Assembly (NCBI GenBank): GCA_021561035.1
Contig: CP067346.1
Location: 1,829,001-1,893,000, forward strand
From: Clostridioides sp. ES-S-0054-01
Lineage (GTDB): Bacteria > Bacillota > Clostridia > Peptostreptococcales > Peptostreptococcaceae
Length of the DNA: 64,000 nt
Direction of reading: 5' to 3'
In this document: positions 34,389 through 61,945 of the stretch, in pieces
Numbering within the stretch: position 1 is the stretch's first letter
Layout of the letters: each line of letters begins with the position of its first letter
Notes under the pieces: generated by a model
Told to the model about the DNA's origin: nothing
The model's input: only the letters and a program-made list of their open reading frames with translations
The model's database searches: none
Position numbers and translations under genes: made by a program

Positions 34389-34533
34389 AATCTTATCCAG
34401 AGAGGTGGAGGGACTGGCCCTATGAAACCCGGCAACCAGTATATTTATATACATTGGTGCTAAATCCTGCGGCGAAAGCTGAGAGATGAGTATAATTAAG
34501 CTTATACAGAGCCTGAGTTATATACTCAGGCTT
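34389..34533 (+). promoter_or_regulatory. SAM-I riboswitch (S-box) with terminator
   Basis: The aptamer shows all S-box landmarks: CTTATCCAGAGAGGTGGAGG, GGCCCTATGAAACCCGGCAA, a variable P3 arm, GGTGCTAAATCCTGC and GCGAAAGCTGAGAGATGAG. A terminator stem (AGCCTGAGT at 34510-34518, ACTCAGGCT at 34524-34532) with a T-rich tail follows. SAM binding should favour termination and switch off the downstream genes when methionine is plentiful. Confidence 0.96.
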
Positions 34534-41728: not shown

Positions 41729-41756
41729 TTGACAATTATATTTTCTTTGCTATAAT
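41729..41756 (+). promoter_or_regulatory. Promoter of the aromatic amino acid operon
   Basis: TTGACA at 41729-41734, a 16-bp spacer and TATAAT at 41751-41756: consensus hexamers, so strong basal initiation is expected, with control left to the leader. Predicted start near 41763, about 40 bases before the leader peptide. Confidence 0.8.
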
Positions 41757-41801
41757 TATTAAACAAGAAGAGCAATAATTATAAAAATGGAGGATAATAC
41801 T

Positions 41802-41957
41802 ATGAAAGGAATATTAAAAGAACTAACAGCAAAACTTTATAGCTTTTTTTACTTTATGTTCTGGGGCTTTTATTTTAGCGCTGGCTATTTCTTTTACAAA
41901 GATACATGTAATTTCTTTCTGGTGAGGCCTTGTTTTAATGACTTTGAGCATAAGTAA
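41802..41957 (+). CDS. Phe/Tyr-rich leader peptide of the aro operon
   Basis: A 51-codon frame starting eight bases after GGAGG and ending at TAA 41955-41957. It reads MKGILKELTAKLYSFFYFMF at the start, then WGFYFSAGYFFYKDTCNFFL and a short polar end. Twelve residues are Phe, five Tyr and one Trp, concentrated in codons 13-39. It lies between a consensus promoter and an intrinsic terminator that precedes aroF. The amino acids it is rich in are the products of this operon. The arrangement is that of attenuator leader peptides such as PheL: stalling at Phe or Tyr codons would allow an antiterminator. CUGGUGAG at 41919-41926, right after Phe38-Phe39, can pair with CUCAUUGG at 42025-42032 in the terminator. 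No T-box motif is present. Function is inferred from sequence only. Confidence 0.75.
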   Translation: MKGILKELTAKLYSFFYFMFWGFYFSAGYFFYKDTCNFFLVRPCFNDFEHK

Positions 41958-42018
41958 ATTTTATAAAAATAATTATTTTATATATTTATGTAAGATTTAA
42001 TGCTTGATAGATTATCTT

Positions 42019-42047
42019 AGAGAACTCATTGGTGAGTTCTCTTTTTT
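42019..42047 (+). terminator. Attenuator terminator in the aro operon leader
   Basis: AGAGAACTCA at 42019-42028 pairs perfectly with TGAGTTCTCT at 42033-42042 over a TTGG loop, followed by six T. It lies 40 bases before aroF, so it must be bypassed for operon expression. Confidence 0.85.
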
Positions 42048-42086
42048 ATTTTAAATATAAAATTATAATACTAGGAGGTAGTAAAA

Positions 42087-43100
42087 ATGATAGTAGTACT
42101 AAAAGTAGGAGCAGATAAAAATGAGATTAGGAAGTTAATAGAAGCTATTGGCAGAGAAGGAGTAGAAGTTAATCCCATAGATGGTACAGAATTAACTGTT
42201 TTAGGTTTAGTTGGGGATACTAGTAAAATAGATGCCAAAAGAATAGAAGCAAATAAGATAGTTGAAAAAGTTATGCATGTAGTAGAACCTTTTAAAAAGG
42301 CAAATAGAAAGTTTCATCCAGAACCTTCAATCATAAACGTAAATGGTATGGAGATTGGGTCAAAAAAAATCGCTATGATAGCTGGACCTTGTTCTGTTGA
42401 AACAGAAGAACAAATAGTATCTATAGCTGAGGATGTAAAAAAATCAGGTGCAGGATTTTTGAGAGGAGGAGCATTTAAGCCAAGAACATCACCATACGCT
42501 TTTCAAGGATTAAGATATGATGGATTGGACTTATTAAAGAAAGCAAAAGAGAAAACGGGTCTTCCTATAGTTACAGAAATAATGTCAACACAAGATATAG
42601 ATATATTTGAAGAAAATGTGGATGTAATTCAAGTTGGAGCTAGAAACATGCAAAACTTCGATTTGTTAAAAGAATTAGGAAAAATAAATAAAACAATACT
42701 TTTAAAAAGAGGATTATCTGCTACAATTGAAGAGTGGTTAATGTCAGCAGAGTATATAATGGCTGGAGGAAATGAAAATGTAGTTCTTTGTGAAAGAGGT
42801 ATAAGAACTTTTGAAACATATACTAGAAATACTTTAGATTTGAGTGCAATTTTAGCTGTAAAGAAACTTAGTCATTTACCAGTTATAGTTGACCCAAGTC
42901 ATGCCGCAGGAAAATCATGGATGGTTGATTCTCTATCTAAGGCAGCAATTGCAGTTGGAGCAGATGGTCTTATAATAGAAGTTCATAATGACCCAGCACA
43001 TGCACTTTGTGATGGTAAACAATCAATTAAACCAAACGAATATGATGAATTAATAAGTGAATTAAAAACTATCGCATCAGCGGTTGGAAGAGAAATATAA
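42087..43100 (+). CDS. aroF: 3-deoxy-7-phosphoheptulonate synthase (DAHP synthase)
   Basis: 337 residues. First step of the shikimate pathway, joining phosphoenolpyruvate and erythrose-4-phosphate. The N-terminal 90 residues form the ferredoxin-like regulatory domain (MIVVLKVGADKNEIRKLIEA) found in type I-beta enzymes; the barrel follows with MIAGPCSVETEEQI, GGAFKPRTSPYAFQG and VDPSHAAGKSWMV. The N-terminal domain in such enzymes mediates feedback inhibition. AGGAGGT precedes the ATG. First enzyme of the eight-gene operon. Confidence 0.95.
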   Translation: MIVVLKVGADKNEIRKLIEAIGREGVEVNPIDGTELTVLGLVGDTSKIDAKRIEANKIVEKVMHVVEPFKKANRKFHPEPSIINVNGMEIGSKKIAMIAGPCSVETEEQIVSIAEDVKKSGAGFLRGGAFKPRTSPYAFQGLRYDGLDLLKKAKEKTGLPIVTEIMSTQDIDIFEENVDVIQVGARNMQNFDLLKELGKINKTILLKRGLSATIEEWLMSAEYIMAGGNENVVLCERGIRTFETYTRNTLDLSAILAVKKLSHLPVIVDPSHAAGKSWMVDSLSKAAIAVGADGLIIEVHNDPAHALCDGKQSIKPNEYDELISELKTIASAVGREI

Positions 43101-43121: not shown

Positions 43122-44186
43122 GTGGAAAAAAAATTATTAGTAAATTTAAAAGAGAATAGCTACAATATATTTATTAAAAAAAATATACTAGAAAATATAG
43201 GAGAAGAAATAAAAAAAATATATTCTGGGAATAAAATTTTTATTGTAACTGACGAAAATGTATCAAAATTATATTTAAATGAAGTGAGAAGTAATTTGAG
43301 TGAATCTGGATTTGAAATTAAATCTATAGTATTAAAATCAGGTGAAGAAACAAAGTCATTTAACACTCTTCCTAAAATATACGATAGTCTACTTGACTTT
43401 AAGTTAACTAGAAAAGATTTGATTATTACTTTAGGCGGAGGGGTAATAGGTGATTTAGGTGGATTTTCAGCAGCAACTTTTTTGAGAGGTGTAAACTTTA
43501 TTCAAATTCCAACATCTCTATTAGCACAAGTTGATAGTTCTGTAGGTGGAAAGGTTGGAGTTGACCTTGAGAGGGGTAAAAACTTAGTGGGAAGCTTTTA
43601 TCAACCTAAAGCTGTATTTATTGACCCAAATGTATTATTATCACTTCCAGAAAAATTCTATAGAGATGGAATGGCAGAAGTTATAAAGTATGGATGTATA
43701 AGAGATAAAACTTTTTTTGATAAGCTTTTAAGTTTGAAAAATAGAGAAGAAGTAATGCAACATATAGAATACATTATACATAAATGTTGCCTTATTAAAA
43801 AAACTGTAGTTGAAGCTGATGAAAGAGATTTTGGAGATAGAATGCTTCTAAACTTTGGTCATACATTAGGTCATGCTATTGAGAAACACTACAATTTTAC
43901 GGGATACACTCATGGAGAAGCCGTTGGTATAGGAATGTATAAGATAACTTTGGAAAGTGAAAAGATAGGAGTTACAAAAAAAGGTACATCAGAACTTATA
44001 AAAACAATTTTAATGAACTATAATTTACCGTATGAGATTGAATTAAGTGATAGCAAATCTATAATAGATGCTATATCTCTTGATAAAAAAAATCTAGGTG
44101 ATACATTAAAAATAATACTTTTAAAGGATATTGGAGAGAGTATTATATATAATACTACTTCTAAATTTTTTCAGGAGGTAAAATAA
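43122..44186 (+). CDS. aroB: 3-dehydroquinate synthase
   Basis: 354 residues. Cyclises DAHP to 3-dehydroquinate with NAD and a divalent metal. GGGVIGDLGGFSAATFLRG and PTSLLAQVDSSVGGKVGVD are the signature segments; GHTLGHAIE and the YTHGEAVGIG stretch carry metal-binding His residues. GTG start 21 bases after aroF. Its TAA shares one base with the ATG of aroA. Confidence 0.95.
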   Translation: MEKKLLVNLKENSYNIFIKKNILENIGEEIKKIYSGNKIFIVTDENVSKLYLNEVRSNLSESGFEIKSIVLKSGEETKSFNTLPKIYDSLLDFKLTRKDLIITLGGGVIGDLGGFSAATFLRGVNFIQIPTSLLAQVDSSVGGKVGVDLERGKNLVGSFYQPKAVFIDPNVLLSLPEKFYRDGMAEVIKYGCIRDKTFFDKLLSLKNREEVMQHIEYIIHKCCLIKKTVVEADERDFGDRMLLNFGHTLGHAIEKHYNFTGYTHGEAVGIGMYKITLESEKIGVTKKGTSELIKTILMNYNLPYEIELSDSKSIIDAISLDKKNLGDTLKIILLKDIGESIIYNTTSKFFQEVK

Positions 44187-45499
44187 TGGGAAGTCTAAAA
44201 ATATATCCAAGTAAATTATCTGGAGAGGTAAAAATTCCACCATCAAAGAGTATGGCACATAGGGCAGTTATTTGTGCATCTTTAAGCAATGGAAAAAGTA
44301 GAATTTCTAATATTGATTTTTCTGATGATATTATAGCGACTATAAGAGCTATGACATCATTAGGAGCTATTATAGAAAGAAAAGAAGATTTTTTAGAAGT
44401 TTCAGGAATTTTTTCTGAAGAAGGCATTTTAAATAGAGATAATCAGTTGAATCAGCCTAAATTAACAATAGATTGTAATGAATCCGGCTCTACTTTGAGA
44501 TTTTTAGTACCTATATCTTTAGCATTTGATGGTGTAAAAAGATTTATAGGTAGAGGTAATCTTGGAAAAAGACCACTTGATACTTATTATGAAATATTCG
44601 ATAGACAGAATATAGAATATAGCTATAAAGAAAATCAATTGGATTTGATTGTATCAGGAAAAATTAAGCCAGATGAATTTAGAGTAAAAGGAAATATAAG
44701 TTCGCAGTTTATAACAGGTTTATTATTTATATTACCTACACTAGAGACTGATTCAAAGATAATAATTACAACTGAGTTGGAATCTAAAGGATATTTGGAT
44801 TTGACTATTTCAACTATGAAAGATTTTGGAGTAGAAATTATAAATAATGACTATAAAGAATTTATTATAAAAGGAAATCAAATCTATAAAGCAAGAGATT
44901 ATAAAGTGGAAGGAGATTATTCTCAAGGAGCATTTTATTTATCGGCAGATGCTATAGGAGAAGATATTAGTATATTGGACCTTAGAGAAGATTCTCTTCA
45001 GGGAGATAGTGAAGTAATTGAGATTTTATCTAGGATGGGTATGGAAATATTAAGAGAAGATAACAAAATCAAAGGAATTGCAAATTGTTTAAATAGTACT
45101 TTGATAGATGCATCTCAATGTCCAGATATAATACCTGTATTATCTGTAGTAGCTGCTTTAAGTAGAGGAAAAACCACAATAATTAACGCTGGGAGACTTA
45201 GAATTAAAGAATGCGATAGACTTCATGCAATAAATGTTGAGTTAAGTAAACTTGGAGCAAATATAGAAGAGAAAGAAGATAGTTTGATAATCGAAGGAGT
45301 AAGTAAGTTAAATGGTGGAGTAGAGGTGTGGAGTCACAAAGACCACAGAATTGCTATGACACTTGCAATTGCCTCTTGTAGATGTGATAAACCAATAATA
45401 TTAAAAGATTTTGAGTGTGTATCAAAGTCTTATCCACATTTTTTTAAAGACTTTGAGATGCTAGGAGGACGAATTGATGAGTGGAATATGGGGAAATAA
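44186..45499 (+). CDS. aroA: 5-enolpyruvylshikimate-3-phosphate synthase
   Basis: 437 residues. Transfers enolpyruvyl from phosphoenolpyruvate to shikimate-3-phosphate. PSKSMAHRAVICASLSNGKS holds the conserved Lys and Arg, DCNESGSTLRFLVP the second, GRGNLGKRPLDTY is a variant of the phosphoenolpyruvate-binding GNAGTAMRP-type loop region, and KECDRLHAI and KDHRIAM complete the site. Start overlaps the aroB stop by one base; the end overlaps aroC by 23 bases. Confidence 0.95.
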   Translation: MGSLKIYPSKLSGEVKIPPSKSMAHRAVICASLSNGKSRISNIDFSDDIIATIRAMTSLGAIIERKEDFLEVSGIFSEEGILNRDNQLNQPKLTIDCNESGSTLRFLVPISLAFDGVKRFIGRGNLGKRPLDTYYEIFDRQNIEYSYKENQLDLIVSGKIKPDEFRVKGNISSQFITGLLFILPTLETDSKIIITTELESKGYLDLTISTMKDFGVEIINNDYKEFIIKGNQIYKARDYKVEGDYSQGAFYLSADAIGEDISILDLREDSLQGDSEVIEILSRMGMEILREDNKIKGIANCLNSTLIDASQCPDIIPVLSVVAALSRGKTTIINAGRLRIKECDRLHAINVELSKLGANIEEKEDSLIIEGVSKLNGGVEVWSHKDHRIAMTLAIASCRCDKPIILKDFECVSKSYPHFFKDFEMLGGRIDEWNMGK

Positions 45500-46556
45500 T
45501 TTAAAAATATCCATTTTTGGAGAATCTCATGGAAATGCTATAGGTATAAATATAGATGGTCTTCCTTCAGGAATTGAACTTGACCTTGAGAAGATTGATA
45601 AAGAAATGAAGAGAAGAGCGCCTGGAAAAAATTCTATATCTACCTCAAGAAATGAAAGTGATATACCAGAAATTCTAAGTGGATATTTTAATGGAAGAAC
45701 TACAGGAACGCCATTATGTGCAATCATAAGAAATAGTGATACTCGCTCAAAAGATTACGGAGAGCTTAAAAATTTAATGAGACCAGGACATGCGGATTTC
45801 ACAGGACATGTGAGATATTCTGGATTTAATGACTACAGAGGAGGAGGTCATTTTTCAGGTAGGATAACAGCTCCATTGGTATTTTGTGGTGCTATATGTA
45901 AACAGATTTTATTGCAAAAAGGAATAGAGATAGGTGCACACATAAAAAAAATTAAAAATATAGAAGATATGAGTTTTGATTATGTAGGTATTACAAAACA
46001 ACAGTTATCAAATTTACAAACTTTAGAACTACCTTTACTCGATTTATCAAAGGAAGAGGCTATGAAAAATACTATTATAGATGCAAAAAATCAAGGAGAT
46101 TCAGTTGGTGGCATAGTTGAATGTGCGGTGGTAGGTGTTAATGTAGGAATTGGAAATCCATTTTTTGATTCTGTTGAATCTACTCTATCACATTTATTGT
46201 TTTCTGTTCCTTCTGTAAAAGGTGTAGAGTTTGGTTTAGGTTTTAAACTTACAGATATGTATGGTTCTCAAAGTAATGATGAAATGTATTATGAAGGGAT
46301 TCAAGTTAAGAGTAAAACAAATAATAATGGGGGAATCATTGGAGGTATTACAACTGGAATGCCAATAATTTTCAAAGTAGCAATAAAGCCAACACCATCA
46401 ATTAGTAGACAACAGAACACTGTTAATATAAAATACAAAAAAGATGATATTTTATCTATTAAAGGCAGACATGACCCTTGTATAGTTCAAAGGGCCATAC
46501 CTGTAATAGAAGCAGTAACGGCTATTGGAATTTTTGATTTGATGAAAGGACGATAA
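45477..46556 (+). CDS. aroC: Chorismate synthase
   Basis: 359 residues. Forms chorismate using reduced FMN. ISIFGESHGNAIGINIDGLP, RRAPGKNSISTSRNE, RPGHADFTG and FNDYRGGGHFSGR are all standard. GIIGGITTGMPI and GRHDPCIVQRA are present towards the end. I chose ATG 45477, eight bases after AGGAGG inside aroA, rather than the adjoining TTG. Confidence 0.95.
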   Translation: MSGIWGNNLKISIFGESHGNAIGINIDGLPSGIELDLEKIDKEMKRRAPGKNSISTSRNESDIPEILSGYFNGRTTGTPLCAIIRNSDTRSKDYGELKNLMRPGHADFTGHVRYSGFNDYRGGGHFSGRITAPLVFCGAICKQILLQKGIEIGAHIKKIKNIEDMSFDYVGITKQQLSNLQTLELPLLDLSKEEAMKNTIIDAKNQGDSVGGIVECAVVGVNVGIGNPFFDSVESTLSHLLFSVPSVKGVEFGLGFKLTDMYGSQSNDEMYYEGIQVKSKTNNNGGIIGGITTGMPIIFKVAIKPTPSISRQQNTVNIKYKKDDILSIKGRHDPCIVQRAIPVIEAVTAIGIFDLMKGR

Positions 46557-46558
46557 TA

Positions 46559-47755
46559 ATGGAGGATTTAACAAGATATAGACATGAAATTGATAATATA
46601 GATAAAGAGCTTATTCAATTATTTGAAAAGAGAATGAATACAGTTCTTGAAATTGCTAAACATAAAATGAAAAATAACACTGCTATACTTCAAAAAGATA
46701 GAGAAGAAAAAGTATTAAGTAGAGCTGTAGATAATTTAGATAATAAAGTATATTCACAAGAAACTATACAATTTTTTAATTCTATAATGGAAATTAGTAG
46801 AGGGTTACAAAAAAGATTAATGGGTAATGATAGTGAGCAGAAAATTGAATATAGTCTAGATTCATCAAATAAGAAATTTGATTTGTCAAATATAGATAAA
46901 TATAAGTCTTTGAAATGCGAATTAAATAAAAAAAATATCCTAGTAGGGTTTCCAGGTATATCAGGTTCATTTACAGAAGAAGCACTAAATAAATTCTTCA
47001 AAAAAACAATTTCAAAAAAACAATTTAAAGAATTCGAAGATGTTTTTATTGCTCTTAAAAATAAAGAAATAGACTATGGAATAATACCCATAGAAAATTC
47101 ATCCACAGGAGCTATTTCTGAAACTTATGACCTATTAAAAAACTACGGTTTTTATATAGTTGGAGAAGAATGCATAAAAATAGACCAGAATTTAATTGGG
47201 ATAAAAGGTACAAAACTTGAAGATATAAAAGAAATATATTCTCACCCACAAGGTATAGGACAAAGTAGTGAGTTTTTAAAACAAAATAGTACTTGGAAGC
47301 TAATACCATTTAATAATACAGCAACAAGTGCTGAACTTGTAAAAAAACTTCAAGATAAAACAAAAGCAGCAATTGCAAGCAAAAAAGCTGCAAGTATTTA
47401 TGGATTAGAAATAATAAGCCCTTGTATAAATGATATTACAAATAACTATACAAGGTTTGTGGTAATCAGTAATCAAATACACATTGAGGAAGAGTCAAAC
47501 AAGATGAGTGTAGTATTTTCTGTTGAACATGAAGCAGGAAGACTTTATAAAGTGCTTGGATACTTTGCGGAAAATAACATAAATATGACAAAAATAGAAT
47601 CAAGACCTATGAAGAACGCTTCATGGAGATATTTCTTTTATATAGATTTTGAGTGTTCTATATATAACCCTAAAGTATATGATTTATTAGAATTGATAAA
47701 GCATAATACAGCATATTTTAAATTTATGGGAGTATATAAAAATAAAACTGAATAA
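46559..47755 (+). CDS. pheA: Bifunctional chorismate mutase / prephenate dehydratase
   Basis: 398 residues. Domain 1 (about 1-90) is an AroQ-type chorismate mutase (RHEIDNIDKELIQLFEKRM). Domain 2 (about 120-295) is prephenate dehydratase (GFPGISGSFTEEAL, YGIIPIENSSTGAI, YTRFVVIS). Domain 3 (about 310-390) is an ACT regulatory domain (INMTKIESRPMKNASWRYFF) whose ESRP motif binds phenylalanine for feedback inhibition. It leads to phenylpyruvate. Starts two bases after aroC. Confidence 0.95.
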   Translation: MEDLTRYRHEIDNIDKELIQLFEKRMNTVLEIAKHKMKNNTAILQKDREEKVLSRAVDNLDNKVYSQETIQFFNSIMEISRGLQKRLMGNDSEQKIEYSLDSSNKKFDLSNIDKYKSLKCELNKKNILVGFPGISGSFTEEALNKFFKKTISKKQFKEFEDVFIALKNKEIDYGIIPIENSSTGAISETYDLLKNYGFYIVGEECIKIDQNLIGIKGTKLEDIKEIYSHPQGIGQSSEFLKQNSTWKLIPFNNTATSAELVKKLQDKTKAAIASKKAASIYGLEIISPCINDITNNYTRFVVISNQIHIEEESNKMSVVFSVEHEAGRLYKVLGYFAENNINMTKIESRPMKNASWRYFFYIDFECSIYNPKVYDLLELIKHNTAYFKFMGVYKNKTE

Positions 47756-47800
47756 ATAAGATAAATTTTTATTTAATTGTAGCTATTAGGAGGTGTAAAG

Positions 47801-48631
47801 ATGAATTTTTTTGGTCTAGTAGGTGAAAAACTTTCTCATAGTGTTTCACCTCAAATTCACAAGAGAATATTTGAGATACTAAATATTGAAAGTGCATATA
47901 AAAACTTTGAAATTTCAAAAGAAGATATATATAAGTTAGATGGTGCTATAAAATTATTGGGAATACAAGGAGTAAATGTTACCGTACCATATAAGGAGCG
48001 TATTATGAAGCATCTGGATTTTATATCATCAGAGGCAAAACGTATAGGAGCAGTTAATACAATTTTACTTAGAGAAAATATGTTATATGGTTACAATACA
48101 GATTACTTTGGTCTTGATAGTATGTTTAAAATGCTTAATATTGATGTTCTAGGAAAAGTAGCTGTTATATTAGGAACTGGTGGCGCTTCTAAAGCAGCTC
48201 TTACATATCTTCTTGATTCTGGCATAGAGAAGGTTTATGTTGCCACTAGAAAAAAGGATAATAAAAAATTATTAAATAGTAAAGCTATATTGATAGACTA
48301 TGAAGAACTTAAATGTATAACAGGTGATATAATATTAAATGCTACACCAGTAGGTATGTACCCTAATGTAGGAATTTCACCAGTGCCAAAATCTATTATA
48401 CAAAATTTTGATACATTAATAGATTTGATTTACAATCCTGGAGAAACAGAGTTTTTAAGGATTGGTAATAGTATAGGTAAAAAAACTTGTGATGGCTTGT
48501 ATATGTTGGTAGGGCAAGCAATAAAATCTCAGGAAATTTGGCAAGATACTAAAATAGATAATAGTATTTTAGATGTCATATATAATGAATTAAAATTAGA
48601 ATTTTTTAAGGGGAATTATTATGATAAATAA
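47801..48631 (+). CDS. aroE: Shikimate dehydrogenase
   Basis: 276 residues. Reduces 3-dehydroshikimate with NADPH. GLVGEKLSHSVSPQIH binds substrate, GVNVTVPYKE contains the catalytic Lys, GAVNTILL, YNTDYFG and ILGTGGASKAALTYL (nucleotide fold) follow. AGGAGGTG precedes the ATG. Eleven-base overlap with aroK. Confidence 0.95.
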   Translation: MNFFGLVGEKLSHSVSPQIHKRIFEILNIESAYKNFEISKEDIYKLDGAIKLLGIQGVNVTVPYKERIMKHLDFISSEAKRIGAVNTILLRENMLYGYNTDYFGLDSMFKMLNIDVLGKVAVILGTGGASKAALTYLLDSGIEKVYVATRKKDNKKLLNSKAILIDYEELKCITGDIILNATPVGMYPNVGISPVPKSIIQNFDTLIDLIYNPGETEFLRIGNSIGKKTCDGLYMLVGQAIKSQEIWQDTKIDNSILDVIYNELKLEFFKGNYYDK

Positions 48632-49154
48632 AACAAAACAAAAATTGATATTAATAGGTATGCCAGGTAGTGGAAAGACTACAATTGGTAAACTTTTGGC
48701 TCAAGAGTATAATTGTAGTTTTTGCGATATGGATGATTATATAAGTCAAATATCCCAAAAAAGCATAGCAGAATTGTTTACAAAAGGAGAAGATATTTTT
48801 AGAGATTATGAGACTCAAGCATGTAGGGAACTTTCTATAAGTGATAAAACAGTGATATCTACAGGTGGAGGTGTAATAAAAAAGGATATCAATATGGAGA
48901 TATTAAAAGAAACAGGTATAATAATTTTTATTGATAGACCTGTACAAAAGATTTTAGAAGATATAAATATTAATTCAAGACCCTTATTAAAAAACGGAAA
49001 AGATAGATTGCATAATCTTTATAATGAGAGAATAAATCTTTATAAAAAATTCTCAGATATAGAAATTTTAAATGATAAATCATTAAATAATGCTGTATAT
49101 AATATTACAAATATAATCAGTGAAAATTTTAAGTTTGAATTTAAAGAAAAATAA
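48621..49154 (+). CDS. aroK: Shikimate kinase
   Basis: 177 residues. Phosphorylates shikimate. IGMPGSGKTTIGKLLA is the P-loop, MDDYI the substrate-binding Asp pair region, FRDYE the conserved Arg, STGGGV the Walker B-like glycine loop. Its start lies within the end of aroE behind AAGGGGAATT. Confidence 0.94.
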   Translation: MINKTKQKLILIGMPGSGKTTIGKLLAQEYNCSFCDMDDYISQISQKSIAELFTKGEDIFRDYETQACRELSISDKTVISTGGGVIKKDINMEILKETGIIIFIDRPVQKILEDININSRPLLKNGKDRLHNLYNERINLYKKFSDIEILNDKSLNNAVYNITNIISENFKFEFKEK

Positions 49155-49174
49155 TCTAGGGGGAAGTAAGAATA

Positions 49175-50014
49175 ATGAATATTGTTATTGTAGGACTAGG
49201 AGTGATAGGAGGCTCTTTTGCCAAAGCATTAAAAAAAGCTGGATATGAAAATGTATTTGGGGTAGACGTAGATTTAGAAACTTTAAAGAAAGCAGAAAAA
49301 GCAAGAATCATAAAAAAAGGATGTACTACAGGTGAAGAGTTATTTAAAAAAGCTGATTTAATTATATTATCTATATATCCTAGATTAGTTGTAGATTTTT
49401 TGAATAATAATAAAAGCTTTTTTAAAAAAGGAACTATAATTACTGATACTACAGGAATAAAAGAAACACTTATCAATGATGTATTGCAAATTATTCCAGA
49501 TGATATAGATTTTATATTTGGTCATCCTATGGCAGGTAGGGAAAAAAAGGGAATTGATTTTGCAAGTGAACAGGTTTTTAATGGTGCAAATTACATAATT
49601 ACTCCAACTGGCAGAAATAACGTAAAGAATTTAGAATTAGTTGAAAATTTAGTTTTAGAGATAGGATTCAAAAGAGTAAAAAAGCTAACTTCACAAAAGC
49701 ATGATGAGATTATAGCTTTTACATCTCAGCTACCTCATGTTATGGCAGTTGCTCTTATAAATAGTGATGAAGAAGGTAGAGATACAGGTAAATTTATTGG
49801 AGATAGCTATAGAGACTTAACTAGAATTGCAAATATGAATGAAGATTTATGGAGTGAACTTTTTTTAGGAAATAGAGATAATTTACTAAAAGTTATAGAA
49901 AATTTTGAATCAGAAATAAACTTAGTAAAAGATGCTATCTTCAATGATGATAAAAATAAATTGATAGAATATTTTAAAAAATCATCAATAAGAAGAGAGG
50001 CTTTAGAAAAATAA
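49175..50014 (+). CDS. tyrA: Prephenate dehydrogenase
   Basis: 279 residues. Oxidises prephenate to 4-hydroxyphenylpyruvate for tyrosine synthesis. IVGLGVIGGSFAKALKKAGY is the NAD fold, GHPMAGREKKGIDFA the substrate-binding loop with the catalytic His, and SQLPHVMAVALI the conserved helix. No ACT domain and no fused chorismate mutase, so it depends on the mutase domain of PheA. Last gene of the operon; a large hairpin follows. Confidence 0.93.
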   Translation: MNIVIVGLGVIGGSFAKALKKAGYENVFGVDVDLETLKKAEKARIIKKGCTTGEELFKKADLIILSIYPRLVVDFLNNNKSFFKKGTIITDTTGIKETLINDVLQIIPDDIDFIFGHPMAGREKKGIDFASEQVFNGANYIITPTGRNNVKNLELVENLVLEIGFKRVKKLTSQKHDEIIAFTSQLPHVMAVALINSDEEGRDTGKFIGDSYRDLTRIANMNEDLWSELFLGNRDNLLKVIENFESEINLVKDAIFNDDKNKLIEYFKKSSIRREALEK

Positions 50015-61794: not shown

Positions 61795-61945
61795 ATACAT
61801 GTAAATATTTATTAGTTAGATTTGAGGTTGGAAAAGGCACCCAATACGCTACTATGGAGTAGTTAATAGAGATGCAGGATACGCCGCCCTGCCAGGTCTA
61901 ATTAAATTAAAAAGAGAGGATTAATTCCTCTCTTATTGTTTTTTG
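61795..61945 (+). ncRNA. Structured non-coding RNA of unrecognised class
   Basis: A compact GC-richer block in AT-rich surroundings. A closing helix P1 pairs 61812-61824 with 61893-61905 (TTAGATTTG with CAGGTCTAA and four more pairs). Inside are three hairpins: TTGG/CCAA (61828-61831, 61841-61844) with loop AAAAGGCAC, CTACT/AGTAG (61849-61853, 61858-61862) with loop ATGG, and GCAGG/CCTGC (61874-61878, 61888-61892) with loop ATACGCCGC. GGC in the first loop can pair with GCC in the third loop, giving a loop-loop contact. A 9-bp terminator (AAGAGAGGA with TCCTCTCTT, 61912-61934) with a T-rich tail ends it. A promoter precedes it. It does not match purine, SAM, TPP, c-di-GMP, ZTP, preQ1, fluoride or SRP RNA patterns I know. 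It may be a riboswitch 300 bp ahead of the YtxH gene or an independent sRNA. Confidence 0.65.

Follow-up and report, generated by a model that had tools for sequence, protein, structure and literature searches.

The aroF operon of Clostridioides sp. ES-S-0054-01 is probably preceded by a transcription attenuator in which the ribosome senses the supply of charged tRNA-Phe and tRNA-Tyr, a reading to which we give a probability of roughly 0.8. The window, a 64,000-nucleotide stretch of DNA, covers positions 1829001-1893000 of a 3.93-Mb contig. A reading frame with a marked codon choice, a hairpin within it, an antiterminator arm, a terminator and an association with aromatic biosynthesis genes emerge from sequence and comparison, and together they point to ribosome stalling as the switch, to Phe and Tyr as the signal and to a role for the hairpin. 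A sequence-only reading of the window had described a promoter, a Shine-Dalgarno site, a 51-codon frame (12 Phe, 5 Tyr, 1 Trp) and a 10-bp terminator with six T upstream of aroF, and all of these are present (Table 1). Its proposal of ribosome-mediated attenuation gained support from the comparison of 129 related elements, and the conserved in-frame hairpin and the spacer hairpin, absent from that account, are added here.

Table 1. Features of the leader and operon; coordinates refer to the window.
Feature	Position	Strand	Basis or remark
Sigma-A type promoter TTGACA-16-TATAAT	41729..41756	+	12/12 matches; TG precedes the second hexamer
Shine-Dalgarno site GGAGG of the leader frame	41789..41793	+	sequence
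Predicted leader peptide frame, 51 codons and stop	41802..41957	+	12 Phe, 5 Tyr, 1 Trp; frame conserved across genera
Putative aromatic control codons F-F-Y-F-M-F (codons -6 to -1)	41844..41861	+	T[A/T][T/C] codon signature
In-frame hairpin CUGGGGCU-UUUAUUUU-AGCGCUGG with G.G mismatch, within W-G-F-Y-F-S-A-G	41861..41884	+	6/8 pairs with two-sided changes
Antiterminator 5' arm CUGGUGAG, inside the leader frame	41919..41926	+	family position +30 to +39 after the core
AU-rich spacer hairpin between arm and terminator	41938..42015	+	5' half overlaps the end of the leader frame
Intrinsic terminator	42019..42047	+	10 bp (42019-42042), then six T; CUCAUUGG (42025-42032) pairs with the arm
aroF, DAHP synthase, first gene of the operon	42087..43100	+	Pfam DAHP_synth_1
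aroB, aroA, aroC, pheA, aroE, aroK, tyrA, rest of the operon	43122..50014	+	pheA by Pfam, others assigned from sequence

The leader frame starts at ATG 41802, ends with the stop codon at 41955-41957 and encodes aromatic residues at 18 of 51 positions. Dinucleotide shuffles of the frame contained 9.5 aromatic residues on average and none of 2,000 reached 18. The aromatic count alone is weak proof, since two of the 112 open reading frames of similar size (40-70 codons) in the AT-rich window exceed the frame, which ranks third in its mechanically called 56-codon form; conservation decides. The start of that longer form (ATG 41787) lies five codons further upstream and, judged by eye, has no Shine-Dalgarno site. 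Terminators are expected by chance at 0.1 per shuffle. In two of eight genomes of the genus the leader comprises 43 codons, so that the length of 51 codons is not general; in two genus members (L010, L011) the leader ends directly after the arm, and elsewhere a small length difference shifts the stop codon 24 nt downstream (compare window 41930-41957). The pheA product was identified by Pfam as a chorismate mutase-prephenate dehydratase, and the other genes behind aroF are, judged by sequence, aroB, aroA, aroC, aroE, aroK and tyrA. Rfam matches elsewhere in the window include a SAM riboswitch (34390-34492) and a skipping-rope RNA (61817-61900).

The family was delineated by comparison of related genomes. 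The aroF gene was searched in 71 genomes of the Peptostreptococcaceae and matched in 70; upstream of it, members of the genus and of several further genera carry a homologous leader frame. The best-conserved part was turned into a pattern, TGGRGCT-N(4-16)-AGCKCTRG, which occurs in 36 of these 71 genomes, compared with one match for the reversed control; many matches lay in leaders of aromatic genes and others within unrelated genes. The pattern-found set was reduced from 36 to 33 elements by dropping two that lie within other genes (L049, L056) and one shortened duplicate (L024), and the 33 were used to build the covariance model R1 (threshold E<=0.001). In overlapping samples, R1 had matches in 84 of 393 genomes from the order, 34 of 391 from the class and 9 of 398 from the phylum. 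The analysed set of 129 elements consists of the 33 pattern-found elements and 96 found by the model, mostly outside the family; two elements whose core is not a multiple of three (L141, L198) were retained, and nine weaker model matches from the order and class as well as seven new phylum matches stand outside the set. A strict-pattern scan of named genomes returned 104 stretches, and R1 matches 72 among the 80 listed. Its eight misses fall exactly on the records from Pseudomonas, Alkalimonas (two), Planctomycetia, Dependentiae, a cyanobacterium, Leucothrix and Micrarchaeota, and serve as a useful negative control.

Carriers of the element include Clostridium beijerinckii, C. intestinale, Terrisporobacter, Intestinibacter, Peptoclostridium, Alkaliphilus, Geosporobacter, Maledivibacter, Vallitalea, Cellulosilyticum, Megasphaera (Negativicutes) and Tepidibacillus (Bacilli). 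Intestinibacter bartlettii has three copies per genome, located before pheA-aroF-aroF-tyrA, before aroE and before a lactate-racemase-like gene (assigned by Pfam on a homologue) followed by a sodium:solute symporter-like gene. In the Clostridioides genome itself the covariance model matches one element only and finds no further copies. A DNA search of this genome yielded two weak matches, of which locus L002 is just a similar ribosome-binding site with the start of an unrelated gene. Two genomes (G061, G064) have two copies in tandem before aroF; at L017, L061 and L063 both copies are complete with leader and terminator, an arrangement that would multiply attenuation. Among family members lacking the hairpin pattern, L029 as well as L031 and L032 (upstream of aroF) carry unrelated Phe/Tyr leader frames (MNITINNINSTTTAYFYFYRFFKDSE; MNKLNAQLKSYNYYYYFNFTSSGKAF..) with terminators, and at L029 a 13-bp antiterminator can be seen by eye, which does not appear in the minimum-energy fold.

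Several properties of the 129 elements indicate that the frame is probably translated. The length of the core is a multiple of three in 127 elements (24, 27, 30, 36 or 21 nt; the exceptions measure 25 and 22 nt), a start codon is found in 126 and a Shine-Dalgarno-like site in 116, and Phe and Tyr account for 29% of the residues in this frame versus 12% and 14% in the other two. In the 84 nonredundant elements the codons preceding the hairpin follow the scheme T[A/T][T/C], the Phe and Tyr codon set; Phe or Tyr occupies codons -6 to -2 in 79, 83, 86, 68 and 76% of cases, and codons -6 to -1 comprise 182 TTT, 91 TAT, 58 TAC and 33 TTC. Within the loop, 285 of 292 residues are Phe or Tyr. The codon pattern thus marks Phe and Tyr as the likely signal. 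Their free replacement by one another is expected if the operon makes both amino acids and a shortage of either opens it. Trp is not the signal, because the Trp codon belongs to the stem and is lost in several lineages. The comparison across aroF leaders suggested by the sequence-only reading was thereby borne out: relatives keep the frame, exchange Phe and Tyr, leave third positions free and show covariation of antiterminator arm and terminator.

Two other roles for the peptide were weighed against these data. TnaC exemplifies arrest peptides, and the nascent chain encoded here could likewise stall the ribosome in response to a free metabolite instead of a scarcity of charged tRNA. Conserved positions besides the Phe/Tyr codons (S-A-G-Y-F-x-C-K-K) would suit such a peptide, but these conserved residues coincide with stem bases, the Gly at codon 0 is replaced by Ser, Asp, Cys or Arg in 18 of 84 elements, Trp is dispensable, and the interchange of Phe and Tyr suits a codon-based signal, which makes an arrest peptide very unlikely. 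The second role, that of a functional small protein, possibly of the membrane, with a terminator merely separating its frame from aroF, finds some encouragement in the hydrophobic core W-G-F-Y-F-S-A-G that is conserved among close relatives. Against it, drift within the genus affects the C-terminal third, including its length and even its frame; the arm is read in two frames (FLMS versus LSNE); several lineages have lost Trp yet preserve the stem through compensatory changes, the terminator follows in 118 and aroF in 97 of the 129 elements, and neither Pfam nor NCBIfam contains a family that matches the peptide. We regard this role as highly improbable. A codon-based signal read by the translating ribosome remains the preferred reading.

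The most conserved part of the leader is a hairpin that lies inside the reading frame and holds Phe/Tyr codons in its loop. The stem CUGGRGCU/AGCKCURG is kept in distant clades through compensatory changes, as in CTTGGGC..GCGCAGG, TTGGGGC..GCGCTGA, CTTTAGC..GCTACGG and CTGGGAC..GGTGCTGG. The claim of a conserved stem rests on alignment A3, whose 95 distinct rows were found by the model, because alignments A1 and A4 were selected with a pattern that fixed the stem, which renders their structure counts uninformative. In A3, which was aligned to the structure of the model and leans towards it, 86.3% of the cells are paired and two-sided changes occur in six of eight pairs (20 cells). For four of five measures none of 500 shuffles reached the observed value, and five of 500 did so for the number of further pair types; slid control structures placed on the same alignment were at most 50% paired. 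The fifth pair is non-standard in 88 of the 95 rows; inspected by eye, most of these are G.G or A.G. The 51-nt region around the hairpin in this genome folds best into it, with a z-score of -0.78 and many shuffles folding as well, and its predicted probability in context is a low 0.09. Across the family, folding predicts the hairpin for the untranslated RNA of 96 out of 112 elements.

The roughly 20 nt on the 3' side of the hairpin (41885-41904 in the window, and their equivalents) are also strongly conserved. In the 84 nonredundant elements, U is invariant at +5 and +11, C is found at +13 in 73% and the sequence then becomes A-rich. This flank is possibly a polymerase pause site; as the position after the invariant U at +11 from the stem is G in only 56% of the elements and A in this genome, the pause stays a suggestion. 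Most likely, the hairpin itself coordinates the progress of ribosome and polymerase, as a site of pausing or timing. A more far-reaching version, which we put forward tentatively and consider less than even in its chances, is that the covarying hairpin acts as an RNA-level pause released only by the arriving ribosome, and thereby defines a dual-coded class of attenuators across Clostridia, Negativicutes and some Bacilli with an aromatic regulon that includes uncharacterised transporters. If true, the leader peptide would be read by a forced handshake between ribosome and polymerase.

The same conservation invites the thought that the hairpin is the true sensor, binding a ligand or protein in the manner of a riboswitch, and that the aromatic codons simply reflect the U-richness of its loop. 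Hairpin, mismatch and 3' flank are indeed the most conserved part of the leader, and the hairpin is predicted in untranslated RNA in the large share of elements given above. However, loops differ in length by multiples of three (127 of 129), the Phe/Tyr codons reach six codons upstream with A or T at second and T or C at third positions, and start codon and Shine-Dalgarno site are kept in 116 of 129 elements. A stem of 8 bp with an 8-nt loop is moreover small for an aptamer. A riboswitch-like sensor is thus unlikely, and the attenuator reading is retained in what follows.

Downstream of the hairpin, a terminator was detected within 330 nt in 118 of the 129 elements. The 11 elements for which the script detected none were left out of the arm analysis, and some of these (for example L044) show a terminator by eye. 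The best complement of the 5' arm of the terminator lies +30 to +39 nt after the core in 99 of the 118 elements. Tested against 100 dinucleotide shuffles per element, it reaches p<=0.05 in 56 of 118 and falls short of this in 62. Arm and terminator sequences change together, as illustrated by the pairs UCUAAUGAG:CUCAUUAGA, CAAUGAGAU:GUCUCAUUG and CUCUUUCUAAGG:CCUUAGAAAGGG. The pairing in this genome is among the weaker ones. The sequence-only reading had proposed that CUGGUGAG at 41919-41926 pairs with CUCAUUGG at 42025-42032 and opens the terminator; the positions are right and eight pairs can form, three of them G-U or U-G, yet taken alone the complement does not stand out from shuffles (p=0.30). 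The stop codon lies at or past the end of the arm in 103 of 113 measurable elements (median 24 nt), so that the ribosome must read across the arm.

The result for this leader might suggest that no peptide-dependent regulation takes place and that a plain leader terminator or the remnant of a T-box sets a fixed level of read-through. The non-significant arm-terminator complement would agree with this view, but frame, hairpin, place of the arm and terminator are conserved across many families and no T-box match was obtained at the locus even at a permissive threshold, leaving almost no probability for fixed read-through. The statement of the sequence-only reading that no T-box is seen here accordingly held in the Rfam search, and the attenuator reading was examined further by folding.

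Folding covered 112 of the 118 elements with a terminator. When the transcript was folded up to the terminator loop, in-frame hairpin and antiterminator coexisted, which means that the hairpin is not the 1:2 competitor known from trp attenuators. The stretch that separates the arm from the terminator shows more folding than its shuffles do (mean z -1.13; 23 of 70 below -1.5 and none above 1.5), and in this genome the stop codon falls within the 5' half of the spacer hairpin. Within the genus, 96.6% of the cells of spacer hairpin and terminator pair, and two-sided changes are seen in none of their 40 pairs, so that an impression of compensatory change in the spacer hairpin at this level was not borne out. 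For this leader, the model gives the antiterminator a probability of 0.62 when a ribosome stalls in the in-frame hairpin and of 0.02 when it sits on the stop codon. The drop occurs even though the stop is located 28 nt past the arm, and presumably reflects disruption of the spacer hairpin. An antiterminator probability of at least 0.5 was obtained in 45 of 112 elements with a stalled ribosome versus 12 of 112 with the ribosome at the stop, and in 67 of 112 it stayed below 0.5 even with the stalled ribosome. Among the 57 elements with substantial antiterminator formation in the folding model, moving the ribosome from the stalled to the stop position lowered the probability in 44 and raised it in seven. 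At equilibrium, the terminator forms in 109 or 110 of 112 complete transcripts wherever the ribosome is placed. As the finished terminator wins at equilibrium, the switch must be kinetic and decided during transcription.

These data suggest the following course of events, in which synthesis of the leader peptide, stalling, premature termination and the response to Phe and Tyr are predictions. RNA polymerase would start near 41763 and a ribosome would begin the leader peptide. During shortage of Phe or Tyr, the ribosome would stall on the aromatic codons within and just before the in-frame hairpin and leave the arm, 34 nt past the hairpin, free. The arm could then pair with the 5' arm and loop of the terminator, partners that the spacer hairpin would bring together, and transcription would proceed into the genes from aroF to tyrA. 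With plentiful Phe and Tyr, the ribosome would cross the arm to the stop codon and cover the arm or the spacer hairpin; the antiterminator would fail, the terminator would fold and transcription would stop. In this scheme the in-frame hairpin would help ribosome and polymerase to advance together, by way of a pause or timing effect.

The genes that follow the elements agree with control by aromatic amino acids. By BLAST to the genes of the window, the next gene is aroF in 97 of 129 elements, pheA in five, aroK in four, tyrA and aroE in two each, and aroB and aroA in one each; 13 were unclassified, one of which is aroQ by Pfam, and four had no open reading frame. At some loci the first detected open reading frame need not be the first gene. 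Pfam searches on seven of the 13 unclassified genes identified a type II dehydroquinase, two sodium:solute symporters (one below the cut-off), a lactate-racemase N-domain and a bile-acid-type symporter, and gave no match for two. Lactate-racemase-like genes follow L047, L065 and L068, the latter two with a symporter-like frame behind; L155, L159, L175 and L183 precede symporter-like genes and L059 an SBF-type symporter. Pfam is the basis for L047, L155 and L059, and resemblance for L065, L068, L159, L175 and L183. The products of all these genes are likely transporters or enzymes of aromatic compounds. At L019, L021 and L022, in Peptoclostridium litorale and a related genus, the aromatic operon that follows the element begins with another gene (MDVRIAVVTKDG.. 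/ MKVKVAVLSNAG..), and the N-terminal stretches of the gene product at L019 and L021 had no match in Pfam.

The enterobacterial pheA, trp and his leaders are leader-peptide attenuators of the type described by Yanofsky. The family presented here shares with them a short frame rich in codons for the regulated amino acids, an antiterminator opposed to a terminator and the position of the ribosome as the putative switch. It differs from them in that the antiterminator arm lies inside the frame, and in that a hairpin lies wholly within the frame, holds control codons in its loop and, in the folding model, does not compete with the antiterminator. The four-region arrangement of the trp subtype, in which a 1:2 hairpin competes with a 2:3 antiterminator, is not seen here in the folding model. 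A further difference from trp is that, by prediction, the antiterminator forms just as well in a leader without any ribosome as in one on which a ribosome is stalled. No covariance model of Rfam 15, proteobacterial leader families included, matched at this locus. T-boxes (RF00230) perform the same task, antitermination upon amino acid starvation, in the same genome, where 25 were matched elsewhere and none at this locus; among 20 related loci Rfam identified three T-boxes, none of which overlaps a matched element.

The sequence-only reading knew of no description of such a leader, which was too strong, given that leader peptides have been published for Bacilli, Staphylococcus and the aroF gene of Acholeplasma and that candidate shikimate uORFs have been reported as well. 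The uORFC-13-1 motif upstream of aroF in Acholeplasma has a predicted Phe uORF and a terminator; it is described from Acholeplasma and environmental sequences only, with 24 representatives and at least one Phe (PMC8632094). Judged by its description, it resembles the present family in placing a uORF and a terminator upstream of aroF outside Proteobacteria. In their work on five genomes, Clostridium novyi among them, Stav et al. (2019, PMC6429828) mention two candidate shikimate-gene uORFs with Phe and Tyr in the legend of Fig. 6b. They may be the same family or part of it, judged by that legend, as the text gives neither source genome, mechanism, antiterminator nor distribution. A his leader peptide in Bacilli (PMC2965389) and a Leu-rich ilv-leu leader in Staphylococcus aureus (PMC5794164) likewise have ribosome-mediated attenuation replace T-boxes in Firmicutes; they concern other amino acids, and an in-frame hairpin is not mentioned in the parts consulted. 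The main text of a review of C. difficile riboswitches lists T-boxes for the Phe- and Tyr-tRNA synthetases and does not include aroF (PMC11477304). Neither the main text of a transcription start map (PMC7438776) nor the consulted parts of a later 50-genome motif survey (PMC11109978) name aroF, and it is likewise not named in those of a T-box survey (PMC2494555). Apart from the named precedents, no description of the leader family was found in the open-licence literature, a scope that leaves out most subscription papers. The class of mechanism is therefore old, and the extent of the family, the covarying in-frame hairpin, the antiterminator rule and the regulon appear undescribed within the literature searched.

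A conserved leader-peptide family would fill a gap beside the T-box map, namely the control of aromatic amino acid synthesis in Clostridia, which probably use ribosome-mediated attenuation widely. The in-frame hairpin makes the synchrony of ribosome and polymerase at attenuators, a long-standing question, approachable by comparative and biochemical means. The family also provides a handle on unknown transporters and enzymes that are placed under the same control.
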